This document shows, piece by piece, positions 25,623 through 44,135 of a DNA stretch of 64,000 nt. The stretch lies in the NCBI RefSeq assembly GCF_002866065.1, contig NZ_LNJZ01000005.1, forward strand, positions 62,001-126,000, given 5' to 3'. Each line of letters begins with the position of its first letter. Positions within the stretch are counted from its first letter, which is position 1. The notes beneath the pieces are model-generated. The model was not told the DNA's origin. It did no database searches and saw only the letters and a list, made by a program, of their open reading frames with translations. The translations under genes and the position numbers were made by a program. The DNA comes from Thiopseudomonas denitrificans (GTDB lineage Bacteria; Pseudomonadota; Gammaproteobacteria; Pseudomonadales; Pseudomonadaceae).

Positions 25623-27071
25623 TTAGTATCCGCTGGGGCGGCCGGTATGCCAGTCGGTCGCGAGTTGGTACTGGTGGGCGGCATTGAGCAGACGGGCTTC
25701 CTGGAACCAGGGGGCCAGCAGCTGACTGCCGACGGGCAGGCCATCAACCAGGCCACAGGGCATGGACAGGGCCGGCAGGCCGGCCAGGTTGGCCAGGGCG
25801 GTATAGCGCTGGCTGTCACGTTCGGCGGCAACATCGGCCGCTTCGCTGAGCAGGCGTGGCAGGGCGGCGGTGACCGGGGCCAGGATCAGGTCGACCGTAT
25901 CAAAGGCGGCGACAAAAGCCTGCTTGATCAGGCGACGGACTTTTTGTGCCTGCACGTAGTAGCGCTCGTACTGGCCGACCGACAGGTAATATGCGCCGAG
26001 CATGACTTGCAGCTGTACCGACGGGCCAAAGCCTTCGCTGCGGCTACGCTGGTAGAGATCGTCCAGGCTGGCGGGGTTGTCGCAGCGGTGGCCAAAGCGG
26101 ACACCATCGAAGCGCGACATGTTGGTGGAGGCTTCGCCACTGCCGATAATGGTGGCACAGGCCACGGCCTGGTCTGCATGGGCCAGTTCGATATCGATCA
26201 GGGTTGCGCCCAGCTGTTGCAGCTGTTCGGCGCTGGCCAGCACCTGTGCGGCAATGCGGCCGTCCAGTGCTTCGTCGAACAGGTTGCGGGCAATGCCGAT
26301 GCGCAGGCCGTTGAGCGGTTGGCCCAGAGTGGTGCTGTAGTCGCTCACCGGCTCGCTGGCGCTGGTTGAGTCGCGCGGGTCGAAACCGGCACCGGCCTGT
26401 AGCAACAGGGCGGCATCTTCTGCGCTGCGGGTGATGAAACCGGCCTGGTCGAAACTGGAAGCATTGGCGGTCATGCCTAGCCGGGAGATGCGGCCATAGG
26501 TCGGTTTCAGTCCGGTCAGGCCATGGTGGGCTGCCGGCAGGCGGATGTCGCCAAAGCTGTCGCAGCCGCTGGCGGCAGAAGCCAGGCCTGCGGCAACTGC
26601 AACCGCGCTGCCGCAGGCCGCGCCGCCACTGATGCGCTGCGCATCCCGCGGATTGAGGGTGGCACCGTAGAAGCTGGAGGTACCACTGGCGGCCATGCCG
26701 AATTCGTCCATGTTGGTTTTGCCCAGGCTGACGGCGCCAGCTGCGGCCAGTTGCTCAAGCAGGTGCGCGCTGTAGGGAGCGACAAAATTGTCGAGCATTT
26801 TCGAACCGCAACTGGTACGCACGCCCTTGCTGCAGAAGGTGTCCTGGTGGGCCAGCGGCAGGCCGGCCAGGGCGCTGGCGCTGCCATTGGCGCGGGCGCT
26901 GTCTGCCGCATCGGCTTGTGCCAGTGTCTGTTCGGCAGTCAGCGTGATGAAACTGTTGAGCTGCGGGTCCAGCTGTTCGATGCGCTGGATATAGTGGGTG
27001 GCCAGCTCGCGGGCGCTGTAGTCGCCCTTGGCCAGTGCCCGTGCCTGTTGGGCCAGTGTTTGCTGATGCAT
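25623..27071 (-). CDS. gatA: GatA homologue with all three amidase catalytic residues replaced
   Basis: 482 residues from MHQQTLAQQARAL, full GatA length, no frameshift or stop. The amidase-signature fold is clear (RTSCGSKMLDNF, LGKTNMDEF, LTGLKPTYGR, SRFDGVRFGHR). GatA normally hydrolyses glutamine with a Lys-Ser-Ser triad (Lys79, Ser154, Ser178 in Staphylococcus aureus, as I recall). The aligned positions here, with identical spacing, are Gln76 (LAHQDTF for LAHKDxF), Ala151 (GGAACGS for GGSSGGS) and Asp175 (GCDSFGDIR for GTDTGGSIR). By sequence it cannot be a normal glutaminase. It lies between gatC (11 bp) and gatB (12 bp) as usual, so it is the native locus and not a stray paralogue. It may be a structural subunit of an ammonia-using complex. 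Confidence 0.9.
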   Translation of the reverse strand: MHQQTLAQQARALAKGDYSARELATHYIQRIEQLDPQLNSFITLTAEQTLAQADAADSARANGSASALAGLPLAHQDTFCSKGVRTSCGSKMLDNFVAPYSAHLLEQLAAAGAVSLGKTNMDEFGMAASGTSSFYGATLNPRDAQRISGGAACGSAVAVAAGLASAASGCDSFGDIRLPAAHHGLTGLKPTYGRISRLGMTANASSFDQAGFITRSAEDAALLLQAGAGFDPRDSTSASEPVSDYSTTLGQPLNGLRIGIARNLFDEALDGRIAAQVLASAEQLQQLGATLIDIELAHADQAVACATIIGSGEASTNMSRFDGVRFGHRCDNPASLDDLYQRSRSEGFGPSVQLQVMLGAYYLSVGQYERYYVQAQKVRRLIKQAFVAAFDTVDLILAPVTAALPRLLSEAADVAAERDSQRYTALANLAGLPALSMPCGLVDGLPVGSQLLAPWFQEARLLNAAHQYQLATDWHTGRPSGY

Positions 27072-27082
27072 GGTGGAAATCC

Positions 27083-27370
27083 TTAGTCGAGCACTTTGGG
27101 AACGAGGTAGAGACCGTTTTCGGTGGCGGGAGCCAGGCTCTGGTACAGTTCGCGCTGGTTGGGCTCGCTGACTACGTCGGCACGCAGGCGCTGGGTCATG
27201 TCCAATGGGCTGACCAGGGGCTCGATTCCGTTGGTGGCTACGCCACTGATGCATTCTGTCAGGGCGGTCAGCTGGTCCAGATTGCTGGCCAGCCTGTCGG
27301 GGCCGTCATTGTCTAGCCGGATCTGGGTCAGTCGCGCGAGGGTTTGCACGTCGGTAGATGTAAACGCCAT
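27083..27370 (-). CDS. gatC: GatC, aspartyl/glutamyl-tRNA amidotransferase subunit C
   Basis: 95 residues. The segment NGIEPLVSPLDMTQRLRADV and the end ENGLYLVPKVLD are diagnostic. GatC wraps around GatA and GatB and stabilises the complex. It is the first gene of the operon and faces mreB. Confidence 0.93.
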   Translation of the reverse strand: MAFTSTDVQTLARLTQIRLDNDGPDRLASNLDQLTALTECISGVATNGIEPLVSPLDMTQRLRADVVSEPNQRELYQSLAPATENGLYLVPKVLD

Positions 27371-28716
<1,346 letters not shown>

Positions 28717-28946
28717 TTCATGCGGGAGCCGGCAGTTTGCCGGCCTGTTCGGCATCGGTGCCGGCATGCTGTGTGTGCGAACCGGTGAGCCGTGGCTGGA
28801 CATGTTGGCAGGCTCGGGCCGTCGGGACGGTTGTTGTGTCCGGTACAGCTGCAAGCTTCCGTCATGATGCCGGACACCGCTGCAGCCTGCTCCGGGGTCG
28901 TTCCCGGGCGCTGCAGACACAGTATTTTCACCCCAAGGTGTAACCC

Positions 28947-29912
28947 ATCAAACCGATATTTTCCAAAGGCACATCGTTAACCGTCCGCGTCATTTTTTTC
29001 GCCCTGTTGTCGGTGCTGCTGATGACGGTTGATGCACAGAGCCAGTGGCTGAAGCCGCTGCGCAGCAGTGCGGGCCTCGTCTTGACGCCGCTGTACTGGG
29101 TGGGTGACCTGCCCGGTCGCAGCCTGGACCGCCTGTCGCAGATGATAGCCAGCCGCACCGATATCCTGGCAGAAAATGAAAAGCTGCGTGCCGATATCCT
29201 GCTCATGCAGCGGCGCCTGCAAAAACTGGCGGCCCTGACTGAGCAGAACGTCCGCCTGCGCGAGTTGCTTAACTCGTCAGCGCTGCTGGAAGAGCAGGTG
29301 GTTGTGGCCGAGCTGCTCGGAGTGGACCCGAACCCGCAAACACACAAGTTGCTGATCAACAAGGGCAGTACTCGTGGCGTCTATCAGGGGCAGCCGGTGC
29401 TCGATGCGCGTGGTGTGATGGGGCAGGTAGTCGAAGTGATGCCCTACAGTGCACGTGTGTTGCTGATGACCGACAGTACCCATAGCCTGCCGGTGCAGGT
29501 GACACGTAACGGCTTGCGTGCGATTGCCAGCGGTACCGGACATCCGGGCATTTTCGAGTTGCGCCATGTGGCCGATAATGCCGACATCAAGGAAGGTGAT
29601 CTGCTGGTGACTTCCGGCATGGCACAGCGATTTCCAGCCGGCTACCCGGTCGGCGTGGTGACGAATGTGCAGCGTGGTACCGGACAGCCTTTTGCAGTGG
29701 TGCAGGCGACTCCAGCGGCGGCGCTGGACCGCAGCCGTCATTTTTTGCTGGTTTTTGCCGAAGGCCGGGAACCGGAGTTTGAGCATGACCTCGAGATGGA
29801 CATGACCTTGCCGGAAGATATGGGTGAGGAGGCGCCGGATCCGGAACTGGTTCCACATGAATCACTGCCGCAGGCTCCGGAACAGACCAGACCGGCGGGA
29901 GAGAATACGTGA
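28947..29912 (+). CDS. mreC: MreC, apparently initiated at an ATC codon
   Basis: 321 residues if translation begins at ATC 28947, giving (M)KPIFSKGTSLTVR, nearly the E. coli MreC start (MKPIFSRGPSLQIR, from memory). AAGGTG (28935-28940) is a good SD 6 bases before it. An in-frame TAA at 28941-28943 excludes any upstream start, and the next usual candidates are TTG 29007 or ATG 29022, which would cut away the cytoplasmic tail and much of the membrane anchor (FFALLSVLLMTVD). The rest is standard: coiled coil (residues about 65-115), then the beta-domain pair with LLINKGSTRGVYQGQPV and LLVTSGMAQRFPAGYPVG. MreC scaffolds the elongasome in the periplasm. Overlaps mreD by 4 bp. Confidence 0.9.
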   Translation: MKPIFSKGTSLTVRVIFFALLSVLLMTVDAQSQWLKPLRSSAGLVLTPLYWVGDLPGRSLDRLSQMIASRTDILAENEKLRADILLMQRRLQKLAALTEQNVRLRELLNSSALLEEQVVVAELLGVDPNPQTHKLLINKGSTRGVYQGQPVLDARGVMGQVVEVMPYSARVLLMTDSTHSLPVQVTRNGLRAIASGTGHPGIFELRHVADNADIKEGDLLVTSGMAQRFPAGYPVGVVTNVQRGTGQPFAVVQATPAAALDRSRHFLLVFAEGREPEFEHDLEMDMTLPEDMGEEAPDPELVPHESLPQAPEQTRPAGENT

Positions 29913-30394
29913 GGCATTTTTCCATCGTCAGCGCTCTGTTGTTCCTGACCAGCCTGCTGCTTGCCCTTATCCTGGAGGTGGCACCCATGCCGGAAGCCAT
30001 GCGGGACTGGCGTCCGCTGTGGCTGGCATTGGTGGTTGCCTACTGGGCGCTGGAGTCGCCAGGCGGCTTCAGGCTGCTGCTGGCGTGGCTGGCGGGCCTG
30101 ATGCAGGACATTCTGTACGGTAGCCTGCTGGGCTTGCATGCCCTGTTCCTGGTTGTGGTTGCCTTTGCCATTCACCGGCTGCAACAGCGACTGCGTATTT
30201 TTCCTGTCTGGCAGCAGGCGCTTATTCTGACCCTGGTGTTCATGGCAGGCCAGCTGATGGCTTTCTGGCTGGATGTGCTGACCGGTTCGCCCAAGCAGTT
30301 TGCGCAATACATGGTGCCTGCCCTGATCAGTGGCCTGTTCTGGCCCTGGTTCTATCTGGCCATGCATGGCGTGCACCGGTTATTGCGTCGCTAG
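29909..30394 (+). CDS. mreD: rod shape-determining protein MreD
   Basis: 161 residues with four to five membrane helices. GTG start overlaps the mreC stop (GTGA). The GLMQDILYGSLLGLHALFLV segment is typical. MreD is the inner-membrane partner of MreC. Its last codons (CGT CGC TAG) run into the MITE-like element: the TAG stop is the element boundary, so the native C-terminus may have been altered slightly. Confidence 0.93.
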   Translation: MRHFSIVSALLFLTSLLLALILEVAPMPEAMRDWRPLWLALVVAYWALESPGGFRLLLAWLAGLMQDILYGSLLGLHALFLVVVAFAIHRLQQRLRIFPVWQQALILTLVFMAGQLMAFWLDVLTGSPKQFAQYMVPALISGLFWPWFYLAMHGVHRLLRR

Positions 30395-30554
30395 TGGTCT
30401 GTGCGACTAATTCCATTAGCCAATTTCGGCGTCTGAGGCTCTCATGCTGCGTTGCTGCTCCTCGCCATAGCCCCGCTATGGCTTGTCACAGCGCCTTGCC
30501 TCGAAACCGCAGTCATCCGAACTTGAGTTCACGAACTAGCCGTTCAGGCCGCTA
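30392..30554. mobile_element. MITE-like element, copy B
   Basis: 163 bp bounded by TA, inverted relative to copy A at 20-183 and about 90% alike by eye. Terminal inverted repeats GTGGTCTGTGCGACTAATT and GCGGCCTGAACGGCTAGTT (reverse complement of the right end), and a central GCCATAGC-CCC-GCTATGGC palindrome (30466-30484 region). No coding capacity. Its left TA is inside the stop codon of mreD. Confidence 0.75.
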
Positions 30555-30995
30555 GCATAAAAATATGCGGGCCTGGTCCGAACTCAGCGTTCACCCCCCC
30601 TATAAAAAACGGCATGGATCGGGCCGGCATTCCGGTTGCCGCAAGCTGTTTCCTTCGGGGGTGGATGTCAAATAGGGCGCTTTGCGTTGCCCGCCTGAAT
30701 ATTTTCCGTTTTGTCAGTGCGTGAAGCTTTTCACGTGTTTGTTGTAACGGCTGTTTGCAACAAACGGAGGGATTGCCGGGCATTTTTCACGCGGTAGTTT
30801 CGTCACAGAGTTTTTTGTGGAGGCCTCGGGTACGGATATGCTTGGGCAAAAAAGTGTACTGTTATACACTTGGGGGCGAAGTGCCATCAATCGGCGCTGG
30901 CGGGATTGCGTAATACAGTGGCGCAACTATTGCAGGTTGAGTGTTAGGGTTTTGTGCGCTTATATATAACTGATTGATAATAGACAGGTTTTGTT
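30555..30995. other. 441-bp gene-free region upstream of the PEGA gene
   Basis: No convincing gene. AT content rises toward 30960-30990 (TTATATATAACTGATTGATA). It contains the palindrome at 30852 and a GTTTGTTG/CAACAAAC inverted pair (30737-30763). Probably the promoter region of the downstream gene. Confidence 0.5.
30852..30871. promoter_or_regulatory. operator-like palindrome
   Basis: Perfect 7-bp arms AAGTGTA and TACACTT with a 6-base spacer (CTGTTA), followed by TGGGGGC. The form suits a dimeric repressor site; position is about 125 bp before the PEGA gene. Confidence 0.4.
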
Positions 30996-32153
30996 ATGTT
31001 TGTACGGGCATGGGGCCGGTGTGGAGCAGCAGGGAACCTTCGTAGTGGAATGCATCGGTCAAAAATGACGATGGTGTTGCTGGGGCTGTTTGGATGCATG
31101 TTGCTGTTCGGTCTGGCAGGCGGAAGTTCTGCTGCGGATTCAGCAGCCGGGCAGGCTGTCCCGGTCCCGGGCAGCCAGCAGACTGCTTCTGCTGATGGCG
31201 GGCATGGTGTTGCCGGCGGGCAGATTACCGAGAAGGATGTCGCGGCGCTGGTCGCGGAAGTCGAAGGCATGGAGCGGGACAAGCAAGAGCTGGATAACCG
31301 GCTGAGTGTCGAGACCAGCCGTTACGAGTCAGCCCGGCTGCAGATGGAAGAGAGCAAGAAGAATATTCGTGCCGAGCTGGATGAAGTGCTGCAGAACAGT
31401 TCTTCGCGCTCCCGTCTGGATGCCATGTTCGGGCGATATGATGAACTGCTCCGTGAGGAGGGCCAGCTGTCCGATGCTTTGTTGGTAACGCAGCAAGAGC
31501 TGGCTGAGCGGCAGTTGAAACTGGCGCAAAAACGTCGTGATCTTGAGCGCCTGCAGACACGATACGCTTCGCAGCAGCGTGAAGAAGCGTTGCGCAGGGT
31601 GCAAAAGGTCGCGCAGCAACTGGAGCGCAATTTGCACTTTCGCGAGACGATCAGCTTCAAGTGTCCGGCCAGCAAAAGCCTGGGCAGCTGTCTGAGCGAA
31701 TATCCGCTGGAAGCACGCATCCAGACCTGGATTGAAGAGCATTATCAGCAGGTCCTGAGCAAGGAGCTGGAGGACGTTGTTGGCCCCGTCAGTTTGAGTT
31801 CCGACTGGTATACCACCAGGGTTACACGTGACTTTACTGAAGCCAGCATGAGTCTGCAGGGTACTGTAACTGCCGATGTCGATGTGCGGGCGCATGTGCG
31901 GCCACGCAAGATGATGGCTTGTGCATTGCTGGCCGCTTCGGCAGAGCTGTGCGAAGCGCAATCGATTTCGCTGATCGTGCGCAGCAATAAGTACGGTGAC
32001 CAGGTGCTGGTCAACAAGAAGCCTTATGGTTCCACGCCCTTGTCATTGATGCTTGATCCGGGTGTGTACAACATTGAGGTACGCTATCAGGGCCTGACGC
32101 AAAAACGCACATTGACACTGGACGAGAACCGCCATATCAATTTTGTGTTTTAA
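30996..32153 (+). CDS. unknown exported coiled-coil protein with PEGA domain
   Basis: 385 residues from ATG 30996 (GACAGG upstream); starts at 31050 or 31065 are also possible. A hydrophobic signal segment (MVLLGLFGCMLLFGLAGG, about 26-43) is followed by a low-complexity Ala/Ser/Gly stretch, a coiled coil (about 77-215), a middle domain with Cys223, Cys232, Cys309 and Cys319 that could form disulphides, and a C-terminal PEGA-like domain (LVNKKPYGSTPLSLMLDPGV, about 338-385). PEGA domains are extracytoplasmic and often bind surface structures. I do not recognise the whole protein. It lies between mreD and rng, where P. aeruginosa has maf, and has its own terminator. Confidence 0.75.
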   Translation: MFVRAWGRCGAAGNLRSGMHRSKMTMVLLGLFGCMLLFGLAGGSSAADSAAGQAVPVPGSQQTASADGGHGVAGGQITEKDVAALVAEVEGMERDKQELDNRLSVETSRYESARLQMEESKKNIRAELDEVLQNSSSRSRLDAMFGRYDELLREEGQLSDALLVTQQELAERQLKLAQKRRDLERLQTRYASQQREEALRRVQKVAQQLERNLHFRETISFKCPASKSLGSCLSEYPLEARIQTWIEEHYQQVLSKELEDVVGPVSLSSDWYTTRVTRDFTEASMSLQGTVTADVDVRAHVRPRKMMACALLAASAELCEAQSISLIVRSNKYGDQVLVNKKPYGSTPLSLMLDPGVYNIEVRYQGLTQKRTLTLDENRHINFVF

Positions 32154-32187
32154 CCTTTGGTAGCTGTAAAATCTGCAGTAATCATGG

Positions 32188-32223
32188 AAAATGCCGCACC
32201 CGGCCGGAGTGCGGCATTTTTTT
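32188..32223 (+). terminator. terminator of the PEGA gene
   Basis: AAATGCCGCAC / GTGCGGCATTT stem with loop CCGGCCGGA followed by TTTTT, 35 bp after the stop. Confidence 0.9.
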
Positions 32224-32289
32224 GCGGAAACAGTACGGGATGGCGTACTGTAGTGCAGGTGGCGCCCGGCCTGATCAAAGGAAAATGGC

Positions 32290-33747
32290 ATGAGTGAAGA
32301 AATCCTGATGAATATCACCCCCATGGAAACCCGTGTGGCTGTGGTGGAAAACGGTGTTCTGCAGGAGGTTCATATCGAGCGCACCCAGAGCAGGGGGCTG
32401 GTCGGCAATATCTACAAGGGACGTGTGGTGCGGGTGTTGCCCGGCATGCAGGCGGCTTTTGTCGATATCGGCCTGGAGCGGGCCGCCTTCATTCACATGG
32501 GCGAACTGCAGATCCCCGAGGGCCGCCAGATCGACAGCATCAGCGGCCTGCTGCATGACGGCCAGGCGCTGGTGGTGCAGGTGACCAAGGACCCGATCGG
32601 CAGCAAGGGCGCCCGCCTGACCACCTATTTTTCCATGCCTTCACGCTATCTGGTACACATGCCGTCCAGTGACCATATCGGTGTTTCGCTGAAAATCGAG
32701 GACGAGACCGAGCGCGAACGTCTCAAGCTGCTGGTCGCAGACTGTCTCAAGGCGGAAACTCTGCCCGAGTTTGGCGGTTTCATCATTCGCACGGCAGCGG
32801 AGGGAGTCAACGAGGCCGACATGCGTGCCGATATCCGCTACCTGTATCGCTTGTGGCAGCAGGTGCAGGAACAGATCAATGATTGCAGCGGCAACTGCCT
32901 GATTTACGAGGAGTTGCCGTTGGCTCTGCGCACCCTGCGTGACCTGGTGGGCGAGCAGACGGAAAAAATCCGCATCGACTCGCGCGAGACCCTGGGCAAG
33001 GCGCTGCAGTTTGTCACCGAGCTGGTACCCGGGGTGGGTGAGCTGATTGAGCATTATCCCGGCGAACGGCCGCTGTTCGACCTGCACGGTATTGAGGATG
33101 AGATCCAGCGGGCGCTAGAGCGCAAGGTACCGCTCAAGTCCGGTGGTTACCTGATCATTGATCCGACCGAAGCCATGACCACTATCGACGTCAACACCGG
33201 CGCTTTTGTCGGTCACCGCAATCTGGAAGAAACCATTTTCAAGACCAACCTCGAAGCGGCGATGGCAATTGCCCGTCAACTGCGACTGCGCAATGTGGGT
33301 GGCATCATCATCATCGACTTCATCGACATGGAAGATGAAGAGCATCGCCGGCAGGTCTTGCGCACGCTGGAGCGACAACTCGAGCGCGATCATGCCAAAA
33401 CCCACATTACCGGCCTGACCGAGCTGGGGCTGGTGCAGATGACGCGCAAGCGTACCCGGGAAAGCCTGAGCCAGCTGCTGTGCGAACCTTGCAGCACCTG
33501 CCAGGGACGCGGTGAATTGCGCACGGCGGAGACGGTCTGCTATGAGGTGTTTCGTGAAATACTGCGCGAGGCGCGGGCCTACCAGGCCGAGGGTTACCTG
33601 GTACTGGCCAGCCAGAGCGTGGTTGACCGGTTGCTTGACGAGGAAGCCGGTAACCTGGCGGATCTGGAAACCTTCATCGGGCGGCCGATCAAGCTGCAGG
33701 TGGAAAGCCTGTACTCCCAGGAGCAGTACGACATCGTCCTGCTGTAG
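32290..33747 (+). CDS. rng: ribonuclease G
   Basis: 485 residues (E. coli RNase G 489). S1 domain at residues 35-125 (NIYKGRVVRVLPGMQAAFVD), catalytic Asp300 (TTIDVNTGAFVG) and Asp343 (IIIIDFIDMEDEE), and a zinc-link CEPCSTC (398-404). It cleaves single-stranded AU-rich RNA, matures the 5' end of 16S rRNA and turns over mRNA. SD AAGGAAAATGGC precedes ATG. It is followed by yhdP after 9 bp, as in Pseudomonas. Confidence 0.96.
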   Translation: MSEEILMNITPMETRVAVVENGVLQEVHIERTQSRGLVGNIYKGRVVRVLPGMQAAFVDIGLERAAFIHMGELQIPEGRQIDSISGLLHDGQALVVQVTKDPIGSKGARLTTYFSMPSRYLVHMPSSDHIGVSLKIEDETERERLKLLVADCLKAETLPEFGGFIIRTAAEGVNEADMRADIRYLYRLWQQVQEQINDCSGNCLIYEELPLALRTLRDLVGEQTEKIRIDSRETLGKALQFVTELVPGVGELIEHYPGERPLFDLHGIEDEIQRALERKVPLKSGGYLIIDPTEAMTTIDVNTGAFVGHRNLEETIFKTNLEAAMAIARQLRLRNVGGIIIIDFIDMEDEEHRRQVLRTLERQLERDHAKTHITGLTELGLVQMTRKRTRESLSQLLCEPCSTCQGRGELRTAETVCYEVFREILREARAYQAEGYLVLASQSVVDRLLDEEAGNLADLETFIGRPIKLQVESLYSQEQYDIVLL

Positions 33748-33756
33748 GGGCCGCTC

Positions 33757-36700
33757 ATGATACGGCAGCTTAACCGGTTGTTTTGGCGCAGTGGCCTGTG
33801 GGTTTGCCTGCTGCTGTTGCTGATGCTCACCCTGTATGTGAGTGCCGGCCGCATTCTGACACCAATGCTCAACGCCTACCGGATCGAGGTGCAGGACTGG
33901 CTGGGCGGGCAGCTTGGCCAGCCGTTGCATCTGGGCCGGTTGCATGCCGGCTGGCACGGAGTGTCCCCACGCTTCTATGCGGAAGACGTGCGCCTGGGAG
34001 ATGGCGAGCAACCACTACACATTGAGCGCCTGCATTTTCGGCCGGACATGCTGTCCAGCCTGTGGCATGGTGACTGGACACTGGCCGCCATCAGCCTGCA
34101 GGGACTGGATATCGAGCTGCAGCAGCAGGCTGATTCCTGGCTGCTCAACGGCATGGTACTGCAGGGTGCTGCAGACGGGGCCTCCACCGACTGGACACAG
34201 CTACTTGGGCGGGCAGGCCGCATCGGGCATTTGAGTCTGGTGGATGCCCGTGTGCGCATCCGTTTGCCGGATACGCCACCTTTCGAGTTGCAGCAGGCAG
34301 GCATTACCCTGGAGCAACAGGGCAGCAGCCGGCACTTGCAGGCCAGCGTGGTGTTGCCGGACGGGCAGCAGCTGCAGGTGGCGGCGCATGCGCGGGGGGA
34401 CGTGGCCGACTGGCAGCAGGGTAGCCTTGATGCCTATCTCAGTGTCCCCGGCAGCAACTGGCTGCAATGGCTGCCACCGGCCTGGCAGCAGCTGTTGCCG
34501 GCCGGCATGGAACTGGATAGTGCCGCGCTGTCCTTGCAGGCATGGCTGGGTATTGAACAGGGGCAGCTGAGATCCCTGGTGCTGGACTCGGACGGCGGAC
34601 AGGTACGCGGCCGCTGGCAGGAGCGGGAACTGGATCTGGAACTCGGCCGGGTACGTGCCAGCATGACGGCCGATGCCGGCGGACGCCTGCTATGGTTGCC
34701 TGACCTGAATGTACGCTGGTCGCCGCAAGTGCCCATGCAGAGTTTGGCGCTGCAGGCACGCCAGCAAGGAACCGGCCCCCTGCTGGAGACCTCCACCGAG
34801 ATTACCATCGGGCATCTGCAGCTGGAGCCGCTGATGACGGCAGTGCTGCAGTATGTACCCATGCCCGGGCTGGCGCACGACATCCTTGCTCAACTGGATT
34901 TTCGCGGCCGGCTGACCAACACACGCCTGCGCTGGACGCCCGGTGTGCACTGGCAGCAACAGCTGGAGTATGACACCAACTTGCAAGGGCTGGATTACAG
35001 CCCGTGGAAACATGTGCCAGGCGCGACCGGCATCAGTGGGCGGTTGTTCGGCAGCTTGGCCGGTGGCGAACTGCATCTGGATAGCAGCGGTTTCAGCCTG
35101 TACTTGCGCGAACTGTTTGCCGACCCTTGGCAATACCATCAGGCGCGGGCCCGTCTGACCTGGTCTCTGGCCCAGAACTTCGACTTCAGGCTGACCAGTC
35201 CGTACCTGCAGGTACAGGGTGACGAGGGCAGCCTGGCCGGTGATTTTGACATCTGGTTACCGGCTGCTGACGAAGAAGAAAGCTACATGGACCTGCGGGT
35301 CGGCATGCGGGACGGCAATGCCGCTTACAAGGCCCGTTATCTGCCGCTGGTATTGCGTGACGAGCAGCCACAATTGTGGGGCTGGTTGCATGATGCAATT
35401 CTGGGCGCGGATGTGCATCAGGGGTATTTCCAGTATCAGGGATCACTGGAGGCAGGTGCCCCACCGGGTGCCCGCTCGATCAGCCTGTATTTTGATGTCA
35501 GCAAGGCCGAACTGGCCTACCAGCCGGGCTGGCCGGTACTGGAAGACGGGCGGGCGCAGGTCTACGTGCATGACCAGGGTGTCGAGATCGAGATCGAACG
35601 GGCGCGAATCCTGCAGACGGAAATCAGCAACGCCCATGCCGAGGTGGCCTACCACGCTGCCGGCGCTTCCACTCTGGGCATCCAGGCCCGGCTTGATGGC
35701 TCGATGGCCGATGCCCTGCAGGTCGTTCAGCAAACACCGCTGGCGCAGCAGCTGCCGGTGATGGCCGGCTGGCAGGGACAGGGCGGGCTGGCCGGCGATT
35801 TGCAGCTGGAGATTCCTTTTGCCGACAGTCAGACGATGCAGGTCCTGCTTGATATGCAGCTGGACAACAACAGTCTGTACATGCCGGATCTTGACGTGCG
35901 ACTGGAGCAGTTGCAGGGCGAACTGGTCATCGACAGCCTGAAAGGCATGACCAGCAATGGCGTGCTGGGCCGCTTTCTCGGACAGCCCTTTACGGCCAGC
36001 ATGCGTCCGCAACCGGCGAGCCGGGAATGGTCAAGCCAGATCCGGGCGCGTGGCAGCATGCCGGTCAAGCGTTTGCAGGACTGGCTGGGCCATGCGCAGC
36101 CTCTGCCTTTTGCCGGGGCCTTCGAGTATCAGCTTGACCTGTCGCTGGCCGGGCAGGGCAGTCAGCTGGCCATCAACACCGACCTGCAGGGTGTGGCCAT
36201 CGACCTGCCGGCACCATTGGCCAAGACCGCGACGGAAAAAGTACCAACCAGCTGGCACATGACCCTGGACGGCTCCGAGCTGCATTACCGGTTGGTGCAC
36301 GGTTCGCGTGTGAACGGCCTGTTTGCAGTGGCACAGACCGGTGAGCGGGCCGTGCGTGGCCAGTTGATGCTGGGCGGGAGCCCGGCACGGTTACCGGCCG
36401 GCAACGGACTGTGGATTGCCGGACAACTGACACAGCTGCCTTTGCCTGACTGGCTGGCTGCTGTCGAACGTTACAACCCGGCACCGGGTGGTGGCGAAGA
36501 TGCCGGTCTGCAGGAGATACGGCTGGATATCGCCCGTCTGGAAGGCTTCGGTATCCCGCTCGAGCAGGCGCAGTTGAATGTCCGGCCGGATACTGCCGGC
36601 TGGCTGGCTACGCTTGCCAGCAAGCAGGCCAGAGGAGCGGTGCGGATACCGGCTTCGGGAGCCCTGCTCGTTGATCTTGACTGGCTGCAACTGCCGCAGG

Positions 36701-37572
36701 ATGCGGGCGAGAACCTGTTGCAGGAGGCAGGCGGGCTGACTCCTGCTGATGTGCCGGCAATACAGGCCAGCATTCGCCAGCTGGCACTGGGTGACGAGGT
36801 GCTGGGCACACTGGCGTTTGCCAGCGTGCCTGATGATGCCGGCGGCGTGCGTTTCGATGATCTGACGGCGAACCTCAAGGGTTTGCAACTTGAGGGCAGC
36901 CTGCACTGGTACGGCCAGCCCGGGCAGCGCAGCAGTTTCAGGGGCCAGCTGACAGGCGGACAGCTGGAGCAGGTTTTACAGGACTGGGGCTATGTACCTT
37001 CCATGAGCAGCGAGAGTTTCACCATCGGGCTGGAGCTTGAGTGGCCGGGAGCGCCACAGGACTTTGCCGTGGCGGGTCTCAGCGGTGTTTCGCAACTCAA
37101 GTTCCGCAAGGGCCAGCTGAAGGCTGCCGATGGCAGCGCCCAGGTACTGCGTGTCTTTGGGTTGCTCAACTTTGATGCCATCGGCCGGCGGCTGCGGCTT
37201 GATTTCACCGACCTGTGGGGCAAGGGGCTGTCCTATGACCGTATTGATGGCGTGATCGATATCGAGCGGGGAGTGTTCAGCACCCGTGAAGCGCTGACAC
37301 TGGAAGGGATCTCCAGCAACCTGACCATCAATGGCAGCCTGGATGTTCCCGCCGGCAGCATCAGGGCCGACATGCAGGTAGCCATGCCGATCAGTCGCAA
37401 CCTGCCACTGGCCGCAGTGGCGGTCGGGGCGCCAGCAGTGGGCGGGGCGCTGTTCGTGATCGACCGGCTGGTGGGCGACCGTTTCGCCCGCATGGCGGCA
37501 GTGCGCTATACCATCAGCGGGGACTGGCAGGACCCGCAAATCACCCTGTCCAAGGGGAGCAACGACAAGTGA
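33757..37572 (+). CDS. yhdP: YhdP, AsmA-like envelope lipid-transport protein
   Basis: 1271 residues. One N-terminal membrane helix (LWVCLLLLLMLTLYVSAGR, about 14-32) and a long periplasmic beta-rich body with the C-terminal AsmA/DUF3971-type segment (VLRVFGLLNFDAIGRRLRLD, YDRIDGVIDIERGVF, MQVAMPISRNLPLAAVAVG). In E. coli YhdP, TamB and YdbH move phospholipid to the outer membrane. The gene follows rng and overlaps tadA by 4 bp (GTGA); P. aeruginosa has tldD next, so this join is a rearrangement. Confidence 0.93.
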   Translation: MIRQLNRLFWRSGLWVCLLLLLMLTLYVSAGRILTPMLNAYRIEVQDWLGGQLGQPLHLGRLHAGWHGVSPRFYAEDVRLGDGEQPLHIERLHFRPDMLSSLWHGDWTLAAISLQGLDIELQQQADSWLLNGMVLQGAADGASTDWTQLLGRAGRIGHLSLVDARVRIRLPDTPPFELQQAGITLEQQGSSRHLQASVVLPDGQQLQVAAHARGDVADWQQGSLDAYLSVPGSNWLQWLPPAWQQLLPAGMELDSAALSLQAWLGIEQGQLRSLVLDSDGGQVRGRWQERELDLELGRVRASMTADAGGRLLWLPDLNVRWSPQVPMQSLALQARQQGTGPLLETSTEITIGHLQLEPLMTAVLQYVPMPGLAHDILAQLDFRGRLTNTRLRWTPGVHWQQQLEYDTNLQGLDYSPWKHVPGATGISGRLFGSLAGGELHLDSSGFSLYLRELFADPWQYHQARARLTWSLAQNFDFRLTSPYLQVQGDEGSLAGDFDIWLPAADEEESYMDLRVGMRDGNAAYKARYLPLVLRDEQPQLWGWLHDAILGADVHQGYFQYQGSLEAGAPPGARSISLYFDVSKAELAYQPGWPVLEDGRAQVYVHDQGVEIEIERARILQTEISNAHAEVAYHAAGASTLGIQARLDGSMADALQVVQQTPLAQQLPVMAGWQGQGGLAGDLQLEIPFADSQTMQVLLDMQLDNNSLYMPDLDVRLEQLQGELVIDSLKGMTSNGVLGRFLGQPFTASMRPQPASREWSSQIRARGSMPVKRLQDWLGHAQPLPFAGAFEYQLDLSLAGQGSQLAINTDLQGVAIDLPAPLAKTATEKVPTSWHMTLDGSELHYRLVHGSRVNGLFAVAQTGERAVRGQLMLGGSPARLPAGNGLWIAGQLTQLPLPDWLAAVERYNPAPGGGEDAGLQEIRLDIARLEGFGIPLEQAQLNVRPDTAGWLATLASKQARGAVRIPASGALLVDLDWLQLPQDAGENLLQEAGGLTPADVPAIQASIRQLALGDEVLGTLAFASVPDDAGGVRFDDLTANLKGLQLEGSLHWYGQPGQRSSFRGQLTGGQLEQVLQDWGYVPSMSSESFTIGLELEWPGAPQDFAVAGLSGVSQLKFRKGQLKAADGSAQVLRVFGLLNFDAIGRRLRLDFTDLWGKGLSYDRIDGVIDIERGVFSTREALTLEGISSNLTINGSLDVPAGSIRADMQVAMPISRNLPLAAVAVGAPAVGGALFVIDRLVGDRFARMAAVRYTISGDWQDPQITLSKGSNDK

Positions 37573-38066
37573 AGCCGGGTTACAGTGTCGGGTGCCATGC
37601 ACCGGCCATTATCGATCGCAGTCTGGACCGGGGGTTCATGCAGGAAGCGCTGGAGCAGGCCGCACAAGGCGCGGCGCTGGGCGAGGTGCCGGTCGGGGCA
37701 GTGCTGGTGCGCGATGGTGTGGTGCTGGGGCGGGGCTTCAATCAGCCGATAGGCCTGCATGATCCCAGTGCCCATGCGGAAATGCAGGCGGTGCGGGCGG
37801 CGGCGCGGGCGGTGAAAAACTACCGGCTGCCCGGTAGCACCCTGTACGTCACGCTGGAGCCATGCAGCATGTGCTCGGGTTTGCTGATCCATGCCCGCAT
37901 TGCCCGGGTGGTGTATGCCGCCAGCGAGCCCCGCGCGGGAGTTGCCGCCAGCCAGGGGCGTTTCTTCGAGCAGGGTTTTCTCAACCATCGGGTACTGGTG
38001 GAGGGCGGTTTGCTGGCGGACGAGTCGGCGGCGATGTTGCGGGCATTTTTCCGGGACAGACGGTAA
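37569..38066 (+). CDS. tadA: tRNA adenosine(34) deaminase TadA
   Basis: 165 residues from GTG 37569, overlapping the yhdP stop. The zinc deaminase motifs are SAHAEMQAV (His, Glu) and TLEPCSMCSGLL (two Cys). It converts A34 to inosine in tRNA-Arg(ACG). The N-terminal IIDRSLDRGFMQEALEQA aligns with Pseudomonas TadA, so the shorter start at ATG 37638 is unlikely. Confidence 0.94.
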   Translation: MKPGYSVGCHAPAIIDRSLDRGFMQEALEQAAQGAALGEVPVGAVLVRDGVVLGRGFNQPIGLHDPSAHAEMQAVRAAARAVKNYRLPGSTLYVTLEPCSMCSGLLIHARIARVVYAASEPRAGVAASQGRFFEQGFLNHRVLVEGGLLADESAAMLRAFFRDRR

Positions 38067-38144
38067 TGCTCACGGCGCAGCATCCAGCATTCAGCGCCGG
38101 CTCCAGAGCGATCGCCGGCTCTTTACATCCGGGAGTCAGGCCGC

Positions 38145-39593
38145 TTATTGGCCCTTGATGGCCGGAGTGTGCAGGCCGCCGAGGATGGTATCTTCGCTGG
38201 CAGGACGGGTTGACCAGGACAGGATGTCGTAATAACGGCGGATGTTGTTGACGAAGTGGACCGGCTCGCCACCGCGGGCAAAGCCGTAGCGGGTCTGGCT
38301 GTACCACTGCTTTTGCGCCAGACGCGGCAGGATCGAGCGTACGTCGACCCAGCTGTCCGGGTCCAGCCCGGCCTGGCTGGTCAGCCGGCGTGCATCTTCC
38401 AGGTGACCCAGACCGATATTGTAGGCAGCCAGGGCAAACCAGTAGCGCTCGGGATACTGGATGCTGTCAGGCAGGCGCTCCAGCATCTGAGCCAGGTATT
38501 TGGCCCCGCCGTGGATGCTTTGTTCCGGGTCGAGCCGGTCCTTTACCCCCAGCTCTTCAGCGGTGCGCTGGGTCAGCATCATCAGTCCGCGTACTCCGGT
38601 CTTGGAGCGTGCTTGCGGGTCCCAGTGTGACTCCTGGTAGCCGACGGCGGCAAGAAACTGCCAGTCCAGGCCGAATTTTTCGGCATTTTTGCGGAACAGG
38701 GCTTCGTATTTTGGCATGCGTTGTTGCAAGTGCTTGGCAAAAGCGTTGGCACCGACGTAACCCATGACATCCAGATGGCCGTAATAGCGTTCGACCAGCC
38801 GGTCGATCAGGCCCTGATCACGGCTTTGCTGTAAAAAATCATTGATGGCGTCAAGCAGGCTGGTATCGGCATGGTTGCCGGGCTGGCGAATGGCCCATTG
38901 CAGGCCGATGGCCGGCTCCAGGCTGAATGCCAGCTGGATGTGCGGGAAATAGACCTGGTGCATGGCCAGTTCGTTGGAGTTGACCAGCGTGATGTCGATT
39001 TGTCCTTCATCAACCATGCGCAGCAGGTCAACGCTTTCGACCGTATCCGAGACGGCAAATTCGAGATCCGGGTGTTCTTTTTTCAGCTCTTCCAGCAAGA
39101 CTGCATGGACACTGTCCTTGAGAACCAGGATGCGCTTGCCGGCTAGCTCTGCTGCCTGCTGTGGGCGTTTGGCACTGGTGTGATAGATGACCTGCGGTGT
39201 CACCTGCAAATAGCTATCGCTGAACAGCAATGCCGGAGTACGTGCCGGATGACTGGTCAGGCCGGCGGCCACCAGCAAAGGGCGCTTGTCAGCCAGGGTA
39301 CGCCGGAACAGCTGTTCGATGGTGTCGGCTGTTTCAATGTGTAGTGTCACGCCCAGCTGGCGGGCAAAAGCCTCGGCCAGGTCATATTCGAAGCCCGAGG
39401 CGTCGCTGCGGTCCTGGAAGTAGGTTGATGGCGTATTTCGGGTCAGCACCACCAGTTCGCCGCTGGCGCGGACCTGCTCCAGGCCGTCAGGCGCAACGGA
39501 TTTGCTGGTGTGTTCGTCCTGGCAGGCTGACAGGGCAAGCAGTAATGGAAATAGCCATGACAGGAAACGATGAGTGAAGTGTGGGGCTGGCAT
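38145..39593 (-). CDS. mltF: membrane-bound lytic murein transglycosylase F
   Basis: 482 residues from MPAPHFTHRFLSWLFPLLLA; signal sequence ends near ALSAC, a possible lipobox. The N-terminal substrate-binding-protein domain (about 45-270; ELVVLTRNTPSTYFQD) is regulatory. The SLT domain follows with catalytic Glu in VGYQESHWDP (about residue 320), GVRGLMMLTQRTA and YNIGLGHLEDAR. It cleaves peptidoglycan to 1,6-anhydro-muropeptides. Divergent from purL, as in P. aeruginosa; the longer frame to 39743 is rejected. Confidence 0.94.
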   Translation of the reverse strand: MPAPHFTHRFLSWLFPLLLALSACQDEHTSKSVAPDGLEQVRASGELVVLTRNTPSTYFQDRSDASGFEYDLAEAFARQLGVTLHIETADTIEQLFRRTLADKRPLLVAAGLTSHPARTPALLFSDSYLQVTPQVIYHTSAKRPQQAAELAGKRILVLKDSVHAVLLEELKKEHPDLEFAVSDTVESVDLLRMVDEGQIDITLVNSNELAMHQVYFPHIQLAFSLEPAIGLQWAIRQPGNHADTSLLDAINDFLQQSRDQGLIDRLVERYYGHLDVMGYVGANAFAKHLQQRMPKYEALFRKNAEKFGLDWQFLAAVGYQESHWDPQARSKTGVRGLMMLTQRTAEELGVKDRLDPEQSIHGGAKYLAQMLERLPDSIQYPERYWFALAAYNIGLGHLEDARRLTSQAGLDPDSWVDVRSILPRLAQKQWYSQTRYGFARGGEPVHFVNNIRRYYDILSWSTRPASEDTILGGLHTPAIKGQ

Positions 39594-39795
39594 GGCGGCA
39601 GTATACAAACTTGGCTGGCAGTGGCCAATACACAGCTTGTTCCGGAATAATCGGCGTCCGCCCCGGTTGCCAGGCCGCAGGGCTGGAGCCGTATCGGGAG
39701 CGGCCGACAGGCAAGGGCAGAATTGATTGGTCATTTGTCGCATGGACGATTAAAATACTGCCTCCTGTTTGCTCTGATCAGAGGCTGTTTCAACG

Positions 39796-42700
39796 ATGCT
39801 CATTTTGCGTGGTGCACCCGCCCTAACCGAATTTCGTCATCAATCCCTGCTGCAGAAAATCCAGGCCATAGTGCCGGAAGCCGGGCAGGTATATGCCGAG
39901 TTTGTGCATTTCCTGGACCTGAGTGCCGGTCTGGATGCAGCAGAAGAACAGCGCTTGCAGCAGCTGCTGGATTATGGCCCGGATGCGGTGGCGCAGCAGC
40001 CGGAAGGTCGCCTGCTGCTGGTGGTACCGCGCATCGGCACCCTGTCGCCCTGGTCCAGCAAGGCTACAGACCTGTTGCGCCATGCCGGCCTGCACAAGCT
40101 CAACCGCATTGAGCAGGGCGTTGCCTATTACCTGGATGCACAACTGGACGCCGCGCAGTTCAAGGCGGTACGCGCCCTGTTGCACGACCGTATGAGCCAG
40201 ACCGTGCTTGATGACATGCAGGCTGCCGCTGCCCTGTTTGCCGGAGAAGCGCCACGCCCGCTGACTGTGGTGGATGTTTTGGGTGGCGGCCTGGCCGCGC
40301 TGCAAAAGGCCGACGCCGAGCTGGGGCTGGCGCTGGCCGAAGACGAGATGGATTATCTGGTAGAGAACTTCCGCAAGCTGGGCCGCAATCCGCATGATGT
40401 CGAACTGATGATGTTCGCCCAGGCCAACTCAGAACACTGCCGCCACAAGATCTTCAACGCCAGCTGGGACATTGATGGCGAAGCACAGCAGAAATCGCTG
40501 TTCGCCATGATCAAGAATACCTACCAGAACAACAGCGCCGGTGTATTGTCCGCCTACAAGGACAACTCCTCGGTGATCGAGGGCTTCACCACCGGCCGTT
40601 TTTTCCCCGACGCACAGGATGGCCAGTACCGTGCCCACCAGGAACCGGTGCACATCCTGATGAAGGTGGAAACCCATAACCATCCGTCCGGCATTGCACC
40701 CTATCCCGGTGCCGGTACCGGCTCTGGTGGCGAGATCCGTGACGAGGGTGCCACCGGCATCGGTTCGCGGCCCAAGGCCGGCCTGACCGGTTTCACCGTG
40801 TCCAGCCTGAACATCCCCGGCTATGAGCTGCCCTGGGAACTGCAATACGGCAAGCCCGGCCGCATGGTCGATGCGCTGGAGGTGCTGATCGAGGGCTCGA
40901 AAGGCGGTGCGGCCTTCAACAACGAATTTGGCCGCCCGGTGCTCAATGGCTACGTGCGCAGCTTCGAGCAGGAAGTGCAGACCGTCAACGGCGCCGAGGT
41001 ACGCGGCTATCACAAGCCGATCGTGCTGGCTGGCGGCCTGGGCAACATCCGTGACGGGCATGTGCAGAAAGGTGAAATCAGGCCCGGCAGCCAGCTGATT
41101 GTGCTGGGTGGCCCGGCCATGTTGATCGGTCTGGGTGGTGGTGCGGCCTCGTCGGCCGACACCCTGGCCGAAGATGACCTGGACTTCGCTTCCGTGCAAC
41201 GCGGCAACCCCGAGCTGGGTCGTCGCTGCCAGGAAGTGATCGACCGCTGCTGGCAGCTGGGTGACGACAACCCGATCCGCTTCATCCATGACGTTGGCGC
41301 CGGCGGTTTGTCCAACGCCTTTCCCGAGCTGGTCAACGATGCCGGCCGCGGCGGGCGCTTCGAGTTGCGCGACATGCCCAGCGCCCAGCCGGGCCTGAGT
41401 CCGCTGGAGCTGTGGTGCAACGAATCTCAGGAGCGCTACGTGCTGGCGGTGGACAGCGAAGACCTGCAGCGCTTTGCCGATATCTGTGCCCGCGAGCGTT
41501 GCCCCTTTGCCGTGGTTGGTGAAGCCACCGCGGAACAGCAGCTGGTACTGGGCGATCGCCACTTCGGCAACCAGCCGGTGGACATGCCGCTGGATGTGCT
41601 GCTGGGCAAGCCGCCCCGCATGCACCGCAATGTGAGCCGCGAAGACAGCTGTCCGCAGCTGTTTGCCGCCGACCAGCTGAGCCTGATCCAGAGTGTCGAG
41701 CGCGTGCTGCGTCATCCGAGCGTGGCCAGCAAGAACTTTGTCATCACCGGGTCTGACCGCACGGTGACCGGTCTGGTGGTGCGCGACCAGCTGGTTGGCC
41801 CCTGGCAGGTGCCGGTGGCTGACTGCGCGGTAACCGCCCAGAGCTTCGACAGTTTCCATGGCGAAGCCATGGCCATGGGCGAGCGTACGCCGGTGGCCAT
41901 CCTCAATGCCCCGGCCTCAGGTCGTCTGGCAGTGGGCGAGACCATCACCAACCTGGCTGCGGCCCGCATTGAGAAACTGAGCGACATCCGCCTGTCTGCC
42001 AACTGGATGGCCGCTGCCGGCCACCCGGGCGAAGACGTACGCTTGTACGACACCGTCAAGGCGGTGGGCATGGAGTTGTGCCCGCAACTGGACATCTGCA
42101 TTCCGGTCGGCAAGGACTCCATGTCGATGAAAACCCGCTGGCAGGATGGCGGCGAAGAGAAAGCCGTGACTTCGCCCGTGTCCCTGATCATCAGCGGCTT
42201 TGCGCCGGTACCTGATGTACGCGGGACCCTGACTCCCCAATTGCAGCTGGACCGGGGCGATACCAGCCTGTTGCTGGTCGATCTGGGTCGTGGCCAGAAT
42301 CGCCTCGGTGGCTCCATCCTGGCGCAGGTGTATTCCGAGCTGGGTGATGTCACCCCTGATCTGGACCGGGCTTCCGACCTCAAGGCGTTCTTCGACAGCA
42401 TCCAGCAGCTGAACCAGCAGGGCAAGTTGCTGGCCTACCACGACCGTTCCGACGGCGGCCTGCTGGTCACTGTCGCAGAAATGGCCTTTGCCGGTCACTG
42501 TGGCTTGCAGCTTGAACTGGATGCATTGCAGATCGCCGGCAGCCAGATCATGGCAGCGCTGTTCAACGAGGAACTGGGCGCGGTCATTCAGGTGCGCAAC
42601 TCCGATATCACGGCAGTACAGGCGCTGTTCGGGGAGCAGGGGCTGGCCGGTTGCGTTCACGTCATTGGCGTGCCGCAAGCCGGCAACGAGATCCGGATCA

Positions 42701-43689
42701 GCCTGGCCGGCCAGCTGATGTACAGCGAGCAGCGCAGCCGCCTGCATCAGGTGTGGAGCGAAACCAGCTATCAGATCGAACGCCTGCGTGACAACAGCGC
42801 TTGCGTACAGCAGGAGTTTGACGGGTTGCTCGACGAGCAGAACCCGGGGCTGGGTGCCCGGCTGACTTTTGATATCAATCAGGATCTGGTTGCGCCCTAC
42901 CTGAATCTGGCGAGCCGCCCGCAGGTGGCGATCCTGCGTGAGCAGGGCAGCAACGGCCAGAGCGAACTGGCTGCCGCTTTTGACCGTGCCGGCTTTGCCG
43001 CCATTGACGTGCACACCAGCGACCTGGCCGCCGGCCGGGTCAGTCTGGCTGACATGAAGGGCCTGGCTGTCAGTGCCGGCTTCTCCTTTGGTGATACCTT
43101 CGGTGCCGGTGCCGGCTGGGCCAACAGCATTTTGCTGGATGCGCAGCTGCGCGAGCAGTTTGCCGGCTTCTTCGCCCGCAGCGACAGTTTCACCCTGGGT
43201 GTCGGTAACGGCTGCCAGATGCTGGCCCGCCTGCAGGAACTGATCCCCGGTGCCGAGCACTGGCCGCTGTTTGCAGACAACACGTCCGGACGTTTCGAGG
43301 GCCGTCTGGCCATGGTCGAGGTACAGGAGTCACCGTCGATCCTGCTGGCCGGCATGGCCGGTTCACGCCTGCCGGTCGCCGTGGCCTGTGCCAGTGGCCG
43401 TGCGCAGTTTGCCAGTGAAGATGCGCGTACCGCTGCCAATGCCTCCGGATTGGTGGCGCTGCGCTTCACCGACAACCATGGCCAGGTCACCGAGGCCTAT
43501 CCGGCCAACCCCTGCGGTACGCCGGACGGCATTACCGGCCTGACCAGTCGTGATGGCCGTGTCACTCTGCTGATGACCAACCCCGAGCGCCTGTTCCGCA
43601 CCGTGCAGCACAGCTGGCATCCGCAGGACTGGCAGGAAGACGCTGCCTGGTTGCGCCTGTTCGGTAATGCCCGGGCCTGGGTCAACTAG
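39796..43689 (+). CDS. purL: phosphoribosylformylglycinamidine synthase with disabled glutaminase domain
   Basis: 1297 residues, full large-type PurL. The synthetase part is normal-looking: [69 protein letters not shown]. PurL converts FGAR to FGAM with ATP and ammonia drawn from glutamine by its C-terminal class I amidotransferase. That domain's triad (Salmonella Cys1135, His1260, Glu1262, from memory) falls at a constant +2 offset on Gly1137 ([10 protein letters not shown] for GVCNGCQ), Asn1262 (MTNPER for MPHPER) and Glu1264. The conserved SHGEGR is ACASGR (1197-1202). The domain is kept in length but cannot use glutamine in the known way. Single gene with a downstream hairpin. Confidence 0.95.
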
Positions 43690-43760: not shown

Positions 43761-43782
43761 CGCCGCCCTATGGGCGGCGTTT
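43761..43782 (+). terminator. weak terminator of purL
   Basis: CGCCGCCC-TAT-GGGCGGCG hairpin followed only by TTT, 70 bp after purL. Confidence 0.55.
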
Positions 43783-43784
43783 GC

Positions 43785-44135
43785 GTAGGTGCGAATTTAT
43801 TCGCACAGGTGCTTTTGTCTGGCGATGTCGAGTCTGTCTGGATAAACCCGGACCTGCATGCGGTGCTTGGCTGGCATACAGAAGGTACTGTTCGGCAAGC
43901 AGCATGTGTAGGTGCGAATTTATTCGCACAGGTGCTTTTGTCTGGCGCTGTCGAGTCTGTCTGGATAAACCCGGACCTGCATGCGGTGCTTGGCTGGCAT
44001 ACAGAAGGAACTGTTCGGCAAGCAGCATGTGTAGGTGCGAATTTATTCGCACAGGTGCTTTTGTCTGGTGATGTCGAGCCTGTCCGGATAAATCCGGACC
44101 TGCATGCGGTGCGTGGCTGGCATGCAGGAGGCGCC
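43785..44135. repeat. REP-module tandem array, 123-bp period, three units
   Basis: GTAGGTGCGAATTTATTCGC modules start at 43785, 43908 and 44031. Each is followed by a TCTGGATAAACCCGGACCTG or TCCGGATAAATCCGGACCTG module and the shared spacer ATGCGGTGCTTGGCTGGCAT. The first two units are almost identical. Same module family as at 5.9 kb but a different spacer, so expanded independently. Confidence 0.88.

Follow-up and report, generated by a model that had tools for sequence, protein, structure and literature searches.

The window, i.e. the whole stretch of 64,000 nucleotides under analysis, corresponds to positions 62001-126000 of contig C2 of its genome (G000; 2,841,088 bp in 9 contigs, 100% complete), which falls into the Pseudomonadaceae and, within this family, into the GTDB genus Thiopseudomonas in the narrow sense, hereafter the genus; being of isolate quality, this genome may be that of T. 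denitrificans. The minus strand carries gatC (27086..27370; an ORF of 95 aa upstream of gatA, named by its size, position and sequence), gatA (25623..27071), encoding a full-length subunit A of the Asp/Glu-tRNA amidotransferase, and, downstream, gatB (24165..25610; 481 aa), the acceptor-side subunit, apparently complete from its sequence. On the plus strand, purL (39796..43689) encodes a full-length FGAM synthase with an intact synthetase part, as established by alignment and family score. The original prediction had singled out GatA and PurL as full-length enzymes with dead glutaminase sites, and both alignments and codons bear this out.

GatA matches its reference, GatA from P. aeruginosa (4wj3_A), over the full length with an E-value of about 1e-174; the start was set at 27071, where this alignment begins, a longer ORF start at 27254 overlapping gatC. 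The catalytic Lys at residue 76 is replaced by Gln (codon 26844-26846, minus strand; IAHKD reading LAHQD), the Ser pair of the GGSSGGS motif, which includes the cis-Ser, by Ala-Ala at residues 151-152 (26616..26621, minus strand; GGAACGS), and the Ser nucleophile at residue 175 by Asp (26547..26549, minus strand; DTGGSIR reading DSFGDIR). The best NCBIfam model, gatA TIGR00132, is matched below its cut-off (449.2 vs. 481.1 bits). Judging from sequence, the protein is a GatA by fold and family membership that lacks the triad of a glutamine-hydrolysing GatCAB. No second gatA was found in the window genome, where a profile search with PF01425 gave one match.

PurL scores 1934.6 bits over its full length against TIGR01735, with the synthetase part complete, and aligns over its full length to the solved PurL 1t3t; as the printed alignment ends ahead of the triad, the latter was read from codon positions and the relatives' motifs, namely GVCNGCQ and MPHPE. 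In the glutaminase domain (42916..43686, plus strand), the Cys nucleophile at residue 1137 has become Gly (43204..43206; GVGNGCQ) and the triad His at residue 1262 has become Asn (43579..43581; MTNPE), with the triad Glu kept (43585-43587).

Regarding the sampling, the genus set comprises four genomes, i.e. the window genome and three relatives, with sizes of 2.2-2.8 Mb and protein identities of roughly 60-90% among them. Three of the four are drafts of 70-310 contigs, two or more of which are probably MAGs, and several genes are unreadable in G001 (87% complete, 310 contigs). A YhdP probe for finding relatives recovered none. When named genomes were scanned with the dead CarA domain described below, two close matches appeared, the MAG AS07pgkLD_43 at 88% and the MAG Thiopseudomonas sp. 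MB2.015 at 78%, the next entry standing at 46%; these two are probably the same genomes as G002 and G003. As controls, seven genomes from five other genera of the same family were searched with like queries, and absences were called by sequence search with E. coli protein queries.

In this set, the triad of GatA is replaced at all three positions in 3/3 genus species read and its catalytic residues are intact in the six relatives read outside the genus; likewise, both Cys to Gly and His to Asn occur in PurL of 3/3 genus species read, the triad being intact in all seven relatives outside the genus. These losses are therefore not a matter of chance. Between species, dN/dS amounts to 0.18-0.26 for GatA, to 0.09-0.12 for the dead domain of PurL, which is under purifying selection, and to 0.10-0.13 for its synthetase part.

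Other amidotransferases of the genome

Class I glutaminase domains (PF00117) number four in the window genome vs. at least five in each of 54 relatives outside the genus. These four belong to PyrG, which is intact, CarA, which is dead, GuaA, which is truncated, and a stand-alone amidotransferase of the PRK05665 type (L003), which is intact. CarA carries Gly for Cys269, Val for His353 and His for Glu355 (E. coli numbering), HPE thus reading VPH; it is dead in 3/3 genus genomes read, the other two carrying Gly, Val/Ile and His at these positions, and its sites are intact in 6/6 control genomes read. The dN/dS is 0.14-0.19 for the dead domain of CarA and 0.20-0.24 for its N-terminal part. In GuaA, the glutaminase domain has undergone a deletion of about 90 residues, residues 109-196 of 7sbc having no counterpart, and the remaining stump shows Gly at the Cys position next to a complete synthetase half; the truncation is found in 4/4 genus species, and the site is intact in both controls read.

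NadE belongs elsewhere structurally, since its glutaminase is a nitrilase domain with a Glu-Lys-Cys triad, the third unrelated fold among the dead enzymes. Its Cys is replaced by Gly in 4/4 genus species, three of which have also lost the Glu; of the three controls read, two have an intact site, the exception being G021 of the sister genus g19. As in PurL, the synthetase-side parts of CarA, GuaA and NadE are intact in the alignments. All states readable in the other three genus genomes agree with those of the window genome.

That the pattern could stem from assembly, binning or sequencing has some prompting in the draft state and probable MAG origin of part of the set, as well as in one apparent contaminant contig (G003:C48). 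The same multi-base states nevertheless recur in four separate genomes with open reading frames, and such an artefact, whose probability was in any case put next to nil, is already refuted by the agreement across species. The dead domains are not decaying either, because their dN/dS of about 0.09-0.26 denotes purifying selection; on this ground pseudogene decay was rejected, and the domains probably persist because they serve structure, allostery or the assembly of complexes.

Cys to Gly is found at four separate sites, i.e. in PurL, CarA and GuaA for class I and in NadE for the nitrilase fold. Since several other substitutions would be just as easy as this one, which takes a single base change, its repetition suggests a preference for a residue without side chain; Gly at the nucleophile position would perhaps open the tunnel entry to ammonia.

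Some glutaminases remain in working order. The N-terminal Cys of PurF is intact in 4/4 genus genomes, the Cys-His-Glu of PyrG in the three genus genomes read, and the stand-alone class I amidotransferase, with its triad intact, is present in all four. As far as sequence can tell, intact glutaminase sites are limited to these three proteins, so that the switch discussed below would be incomplete.

Missing genes and reworked operons

Beyond inactivated sites, whole glutaminase genes are missing. HisH, TrpG/PabA and GlmS were found in none of the four genus genomes; with like queries, the controls gave GlmS, HisH, TrpG and PurL in 7/7 and GltB in all but one. A GlmS match in G003, consisting of a 30-residue tail, was discarded: it lies on the 6-kb contig G003:C48, whose other genes look foreign and which is likely a contaminant. 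In the window genome, E. coli protein queries gave no match for GltB, AsnB, AsnA or AmtB, and those for NtrB and AsnRS gave only cross-matches to other kinases and synthetases; the same set of queries does recover HisF, HisA, TrpE, PabB, GlnA, GlnRS and two glutamate dehydrogenases. AmtB and NtrB have no specific match across the genus, and they do occur in several relatives. GOGAT (PF00310) occurs in 386 of 399 genomes of the family, and the 13 genomes lacking it are all four of the genus, seven of g19 and two others. With an E. coli query, DapD gave no usable match, even in the controls. The missing asnB may be ancestral in the family, and the missing AsnRS is probably so, since the relatives checked are also without AsnRS. 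As AsnRS, AsnA and AsnB were not found, GatCAB is probably the sole route to Asn-tRNA.

Among the further genes that the original prediction had named as places to look for lost nucleophiles, carA and guaA are thus dead, hisH, trpG/pabA, gltB and glmS are missing and asnB was not found; purF and pyrG depart from that expectation, both keeping complete glutaminase sites wherever read. The genome does not hold the combination that would speak against the idea as a whole, i.e. an intact Cys in all other amidotransferases together with spare copies of gatA and purL. In addition to GatA and PurL, the dead or missing functions with glutamine as donor number at least seven.

The operons keep the trace of these events. 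In the his operon, hisB and hisA are separated by less than 200 bp, which leaves no space for hisH, and the trp operon reads trpE - ddh - trpD - trpC, trpG being gone; the loss of hisH and trpG is a clean excision. In 4/4 genus genomes, trpE is followed by ddh, which encodes a meso-diaminopimelate dehydrogenase (TIGR01921, 466 bits vs. a cut-off of 180.6), an enzyme that fixes free ammonia with NADPH. Glutamine synthetase, PII, GlnD and GlnE are retained; in the window genome, aspartase lies 3 kb from gdhA, and a NagB-type deaminase is present, which barely passes the cut-off of its family (TIGR00502, 237.4 vs. 236.9 bits). Besides, the LGRND motif of TrpE in relatives reads LGC[DA]D in the genus, and PabB of the genus is devoid of the RND motif; given the putative role of this motif, the change would look like co-evolution after loss of the glutaminase partner.

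Genome reduction in a nutrient-fed importer of nucleobases, amino acids and NAD precursors, with decaying pathways and dead domains as relics, would agree with the small genomes and rich habitats, yet it is hardly credible here: only glutaminase parts are affected, the other genes of the his and trp operons being intact, as are the synthetase parts, dN/dS of the dead domains is far below 1, and GatCAB must work if it is the sole source of Asn-tRNA. A shared, separate glutaminase feeding ammonia to the dead enzymes inside the cell, with glutamine still the donor, has in its favour the stand-alone class I amidotransferase with its intact triad in all four species. This reading is nonetheless very improbable, as most of the GuaA domain that could accommodate a partner is gone, the changes in TrpE and PabB suggest that no partner docks, and a diffusing supply would amount to the use of free ammonia anyway. 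The original prediction had also thought of a new shared ammonia-delivery protein, for which no candidate emerged; L003 scores above the cut-off of the existing curated family PRK05665, is consequently no invention of the lineage, and was rejected as a shared ammonia supplier.

A proposed switch to free ammonia

The present analysis establishes the losses of genes and residues, their occurrence throughout the genus and the purifying selection acting on what is left, and from them we infer a use of ammonia, a route through NagB and an ecological cause. It appears highly probable that glutamine-dependent amidation was dismantled genome-wide in the ancestor of the genus, that free ammonia would be used in its place and that an ammonia-rich niche was the likely cause. 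The lineage-wide switch to ammonia put forward in the original prediction gains support and breadth from the dead CarA, GuaA and NadE, from the further missing genes and from their sharing in the genus; its generality is curtailed by PurF and PyrG, which stay intact.

In the proposed mechanism, GatA, PurL, CarA and NadE retain complete glutaminase domains or subunits, which would serve as scaffolds devoid of catalytic residues, and the intact synthetase halves most likely take free NH3 from solution at or through the old ammonia entry. Glutamate would be formed via glutamate dehydrogenase, aspartate via aspartase and diaminopimelate via the NADPH/NH3-dependent diaminopimelate dehydrogenase, and glutamine synthetase would remain as the supplier of GlnRS, PurF and PyrG. 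Glucosamine-6-phosphate would possibly arise from a NagB-type deaminase working in reverse, the import of GlcNAc being an alternative bypass of GlmS. For ammonium, the NagB of Akkermansia shows a Km of 41 mM, and it was judged not to reverse in the cell (PMC5902328); Akkermansia muciniphila resembles the genus in having NagB and no GlmS, but needs environmental GlcNAc, its NagB not reversing in vivo. The supply of glucosamine-6-phosphate is thus the weakest link of the scheme, an aminating NagB being conceivable at the ammonia levels of digesters. These can amount to 4.2 g/L total ammonia (PMC7038595), roughly 0.25-0.3 M. Synthetases with a dead or missing glutaminase are able to work with free ammonia, as in the classic example of human CPS1. 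In vitro, HisF from E. coli uses free ammonia when ammonia is high and pH is above 8 (PMC3896937).

In a permanently ammonia-rich habitat such as manure or digesters, glutamine as nitrogen carrier would only cost ATP. The habitat evidence comes from two relatives: MB2.015 was obtained from pig faeces and is counted as a new Thiopseudomonas species (PMC8772591), and AS07pgkLD_43 would come from a biogas reactor, by the naming scheme of a biogas MAG survey (PMC7038595).

A different driver can be considered for the same, real losses, i.e. glutamine-analogue antibiotics of the DON, azaserine or acivicin type, or another antagonist in dense communities, ammonia being only permissive. Several of the lost glutaminase sites are covalent targets of glutamine analogues, and escape from such compounds would account for folds being kept while nucleophiles are lost. 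However, PurF and PyrG keep their nucleophiles though they are known targets as well, and the loss of GOGAT, Amt and Ntr together with the gain of diaminopimelate dehydrogenase points to ammonia supply and not to drug escape, which makes this explanation unlikely. Coming back to the switch to ammonia, it is likely that the genus is free-living and probably culturable, with all but two known amidations taken off glutamine, an obligate need for high ammonium, all four unrelated glutaminase classes inactivated or lost together and a transitional sister genus still alive.

In textbooks, bacterial nitrogen is carried largely through glutamine, free cellular ammonia being scarce, a rule to which the genus would run counter. 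Vertebrate CPS1 retains a glutaminase-like domain whose nucleophile is lost, and it works with free ammonia; the CPS1 structures 5dot and 6uel were matched by the CarA query. Like vertebrate CPS1, the genus keeps dead glutaminase-like domains, but CPS1 is one enzyme in an ammonia-detoxifying organ, whereas here nearly all the amidations of a free-living bacterium are concerned and Gly stands at the nucleophile position. From the dead sites, the intact synthetase parts and the dN/dS values, a CPS1-like mode of working may be inferred for the amidating enzymes.

In bacteria, the single-domain NadE of the E. coli type amidates NAD by free ammonia and has no glutaminase (PMC3376133); unlike it, NadE of the genus has two domains and retains the dead nitrilase domain. 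In Corynebacterium glutamicum, HisF remains active in vivo after deletion of hisH as long as ammonia is available (an unpublished observation cited in PMC3896937), but this concerns one enzyme in a laboratory strain, hisH being retained in the wild type. Single cases, i.e. CPS1, single-domain NadE and the laboratory hisH deletion, are thus known. A survey of 490-800 genomes per enzyme met none without a glutaminase partner for GuaA, PurL, TrpE, CarAB and GatCAB (PMC3376133). The genus breaks this pattern for all five, by three dead sites, one truncation and one loss, to which NadE, HisF and PabB are added. A literature search, with most subscription journals outside its reach, found no open-access paper on this state, and the concerted switch throughout a lineage would represent, as far as can be told, a new kind of nitrogen economy assembled from known parts.

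Such an economy would allow several questions to be put to the test, namely the in vivo need for ammonia channelling, the structural role of glutaminase domains free of catalysis, and the dispensability of GOGAT, Amt and Ntr under constant ammonia. It also predicts enzymes that are naturally ammonia-dependent and an organism that resists most inhibitors of the glutamine-analogue type and could serve in digesters as an indicator of high ammonia.

The sister genus and the order of loss

In a tree of GatA, CarA and PurL over 1601 sites (INTERMEDIATES), the genus comes together with a support of 100 and g19 stands as its sister (82). Like the genus, g19 has NagB and trpE followed by ddh in both members read, several of its genomes are without GOGAT, and one NadE shows Cys to Gly, this substitution being found in G021 but not in G036. 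No specific match to AmtB or NtrB was found in G021. Unlike the genus, both g19 members read possess GlmS, HisH, TrpG, GatA, PurL and CarA in intact form, and G021 has an intact GuaA as well; NagB thus occurs beside an intact GlmS, and hisH still lies between hisB and hisA. From these gene contents, g19 looks transitional.

Regarding the order of loss, the trp operon reads trpE - ddh - trpG - trpD in g19 and trpE - trpG - trpD in a more distant relative, from which it follows that ddh arrived first and that trpG left later. In other words, g19 offers living intermediates from which the sequence of losses could be reconstructed. It is probably the group of Thiopseudomonas alkaliphila and Denitrificimonas. 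T. denitrificans is the type species and was obtained from an anaerobic activated-sludge reactor; at the whole-genome level, it stands far from both T. alkaliphila and T. acetoxidans (PMC11302033), which fits the split between the genus of the window and g19.

Chorismate enzymes and the trp operon

Regarding the partners of the deleted glutaminases TrpG and PabA, the conserved RND motif is missing from both chorismate enzymes in all four species of the window's genus (TrpE and PabB; L029-L032 and L036-L039), where LGRND of TrpE is changed to LGC[DA]D and the motif of PabB is absent, while relatives retain it in TrpE. This loss is possibly the trace of the vanished TrpG/PabA partner. Besides, comparing the gene orders of the sister genus g19 (L271 and L272) with those of L072 and L274 distinguishes three arrangements, namely trpE-trpG-trpD, trpE-ddh-trpG-trpD in g19 and trpE-ddh-trpD in the window's genus, ddh encoding meso-DAP dehydrogenase. 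They form a stepwise series in that order, ddh having entered between trpE and trpG in g19 earlier than trpG was lost in the window's genus.

NadE and GOGAT in related genera

The NadE Cys is replaced by Gly in one g19 genome (L205, G021:C1:2525122-2526735) and retained in its congener G036; the replacement is a parallel or early step. As for GOGAT, five g19 genomes (G036, G067, G078, G086 and G094) encode a GltB whose reading frame is longer, at about 1580 aa, the G036 protein being 42% identical to that of E. coli, and GltB was not found in seven other g19 genomes; the enzyme of these five was possibly re-acquired or replaced. In the family genome survey, a GOGAT glutaminase match was not found either in G226 and G268, from genera g5 and g16, which are 79% and 99% complete, respectively.

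A probable contaminant, a second amidase, glnA flanks and palindromic repeats

Binning contamination is the apparent origin of a 6-kb contig (G003:C48, L191), on which a glmS gene tail lies together with propionate/methionine-type genes. Only one species has a second protein bearing the amidase signature (L020, G002:C34:106364-107614), in which the Lys-Ser-Ser motifs are intact; it is 32% identical to GatA and is an ordinary amidase rather than a GatA.

Many Pseudomonadales have ntrB/ntrC following glnA; in the window's genome (L074, G000:C6:116000-128000), they do not lie 3' of glnA, which is followed by an EamA-type transporter gene. Dispersed palindromic repeats of types GTGCGAATTYATTCGCAC and CCGGATTTATCCGGAC occur in the window at 5974-6350, 12851-12948, 43780-44120 and 47474-47840, part of them as tandem-like arrays downstream of purL, and resembling sequence flanks guaA and glnA.
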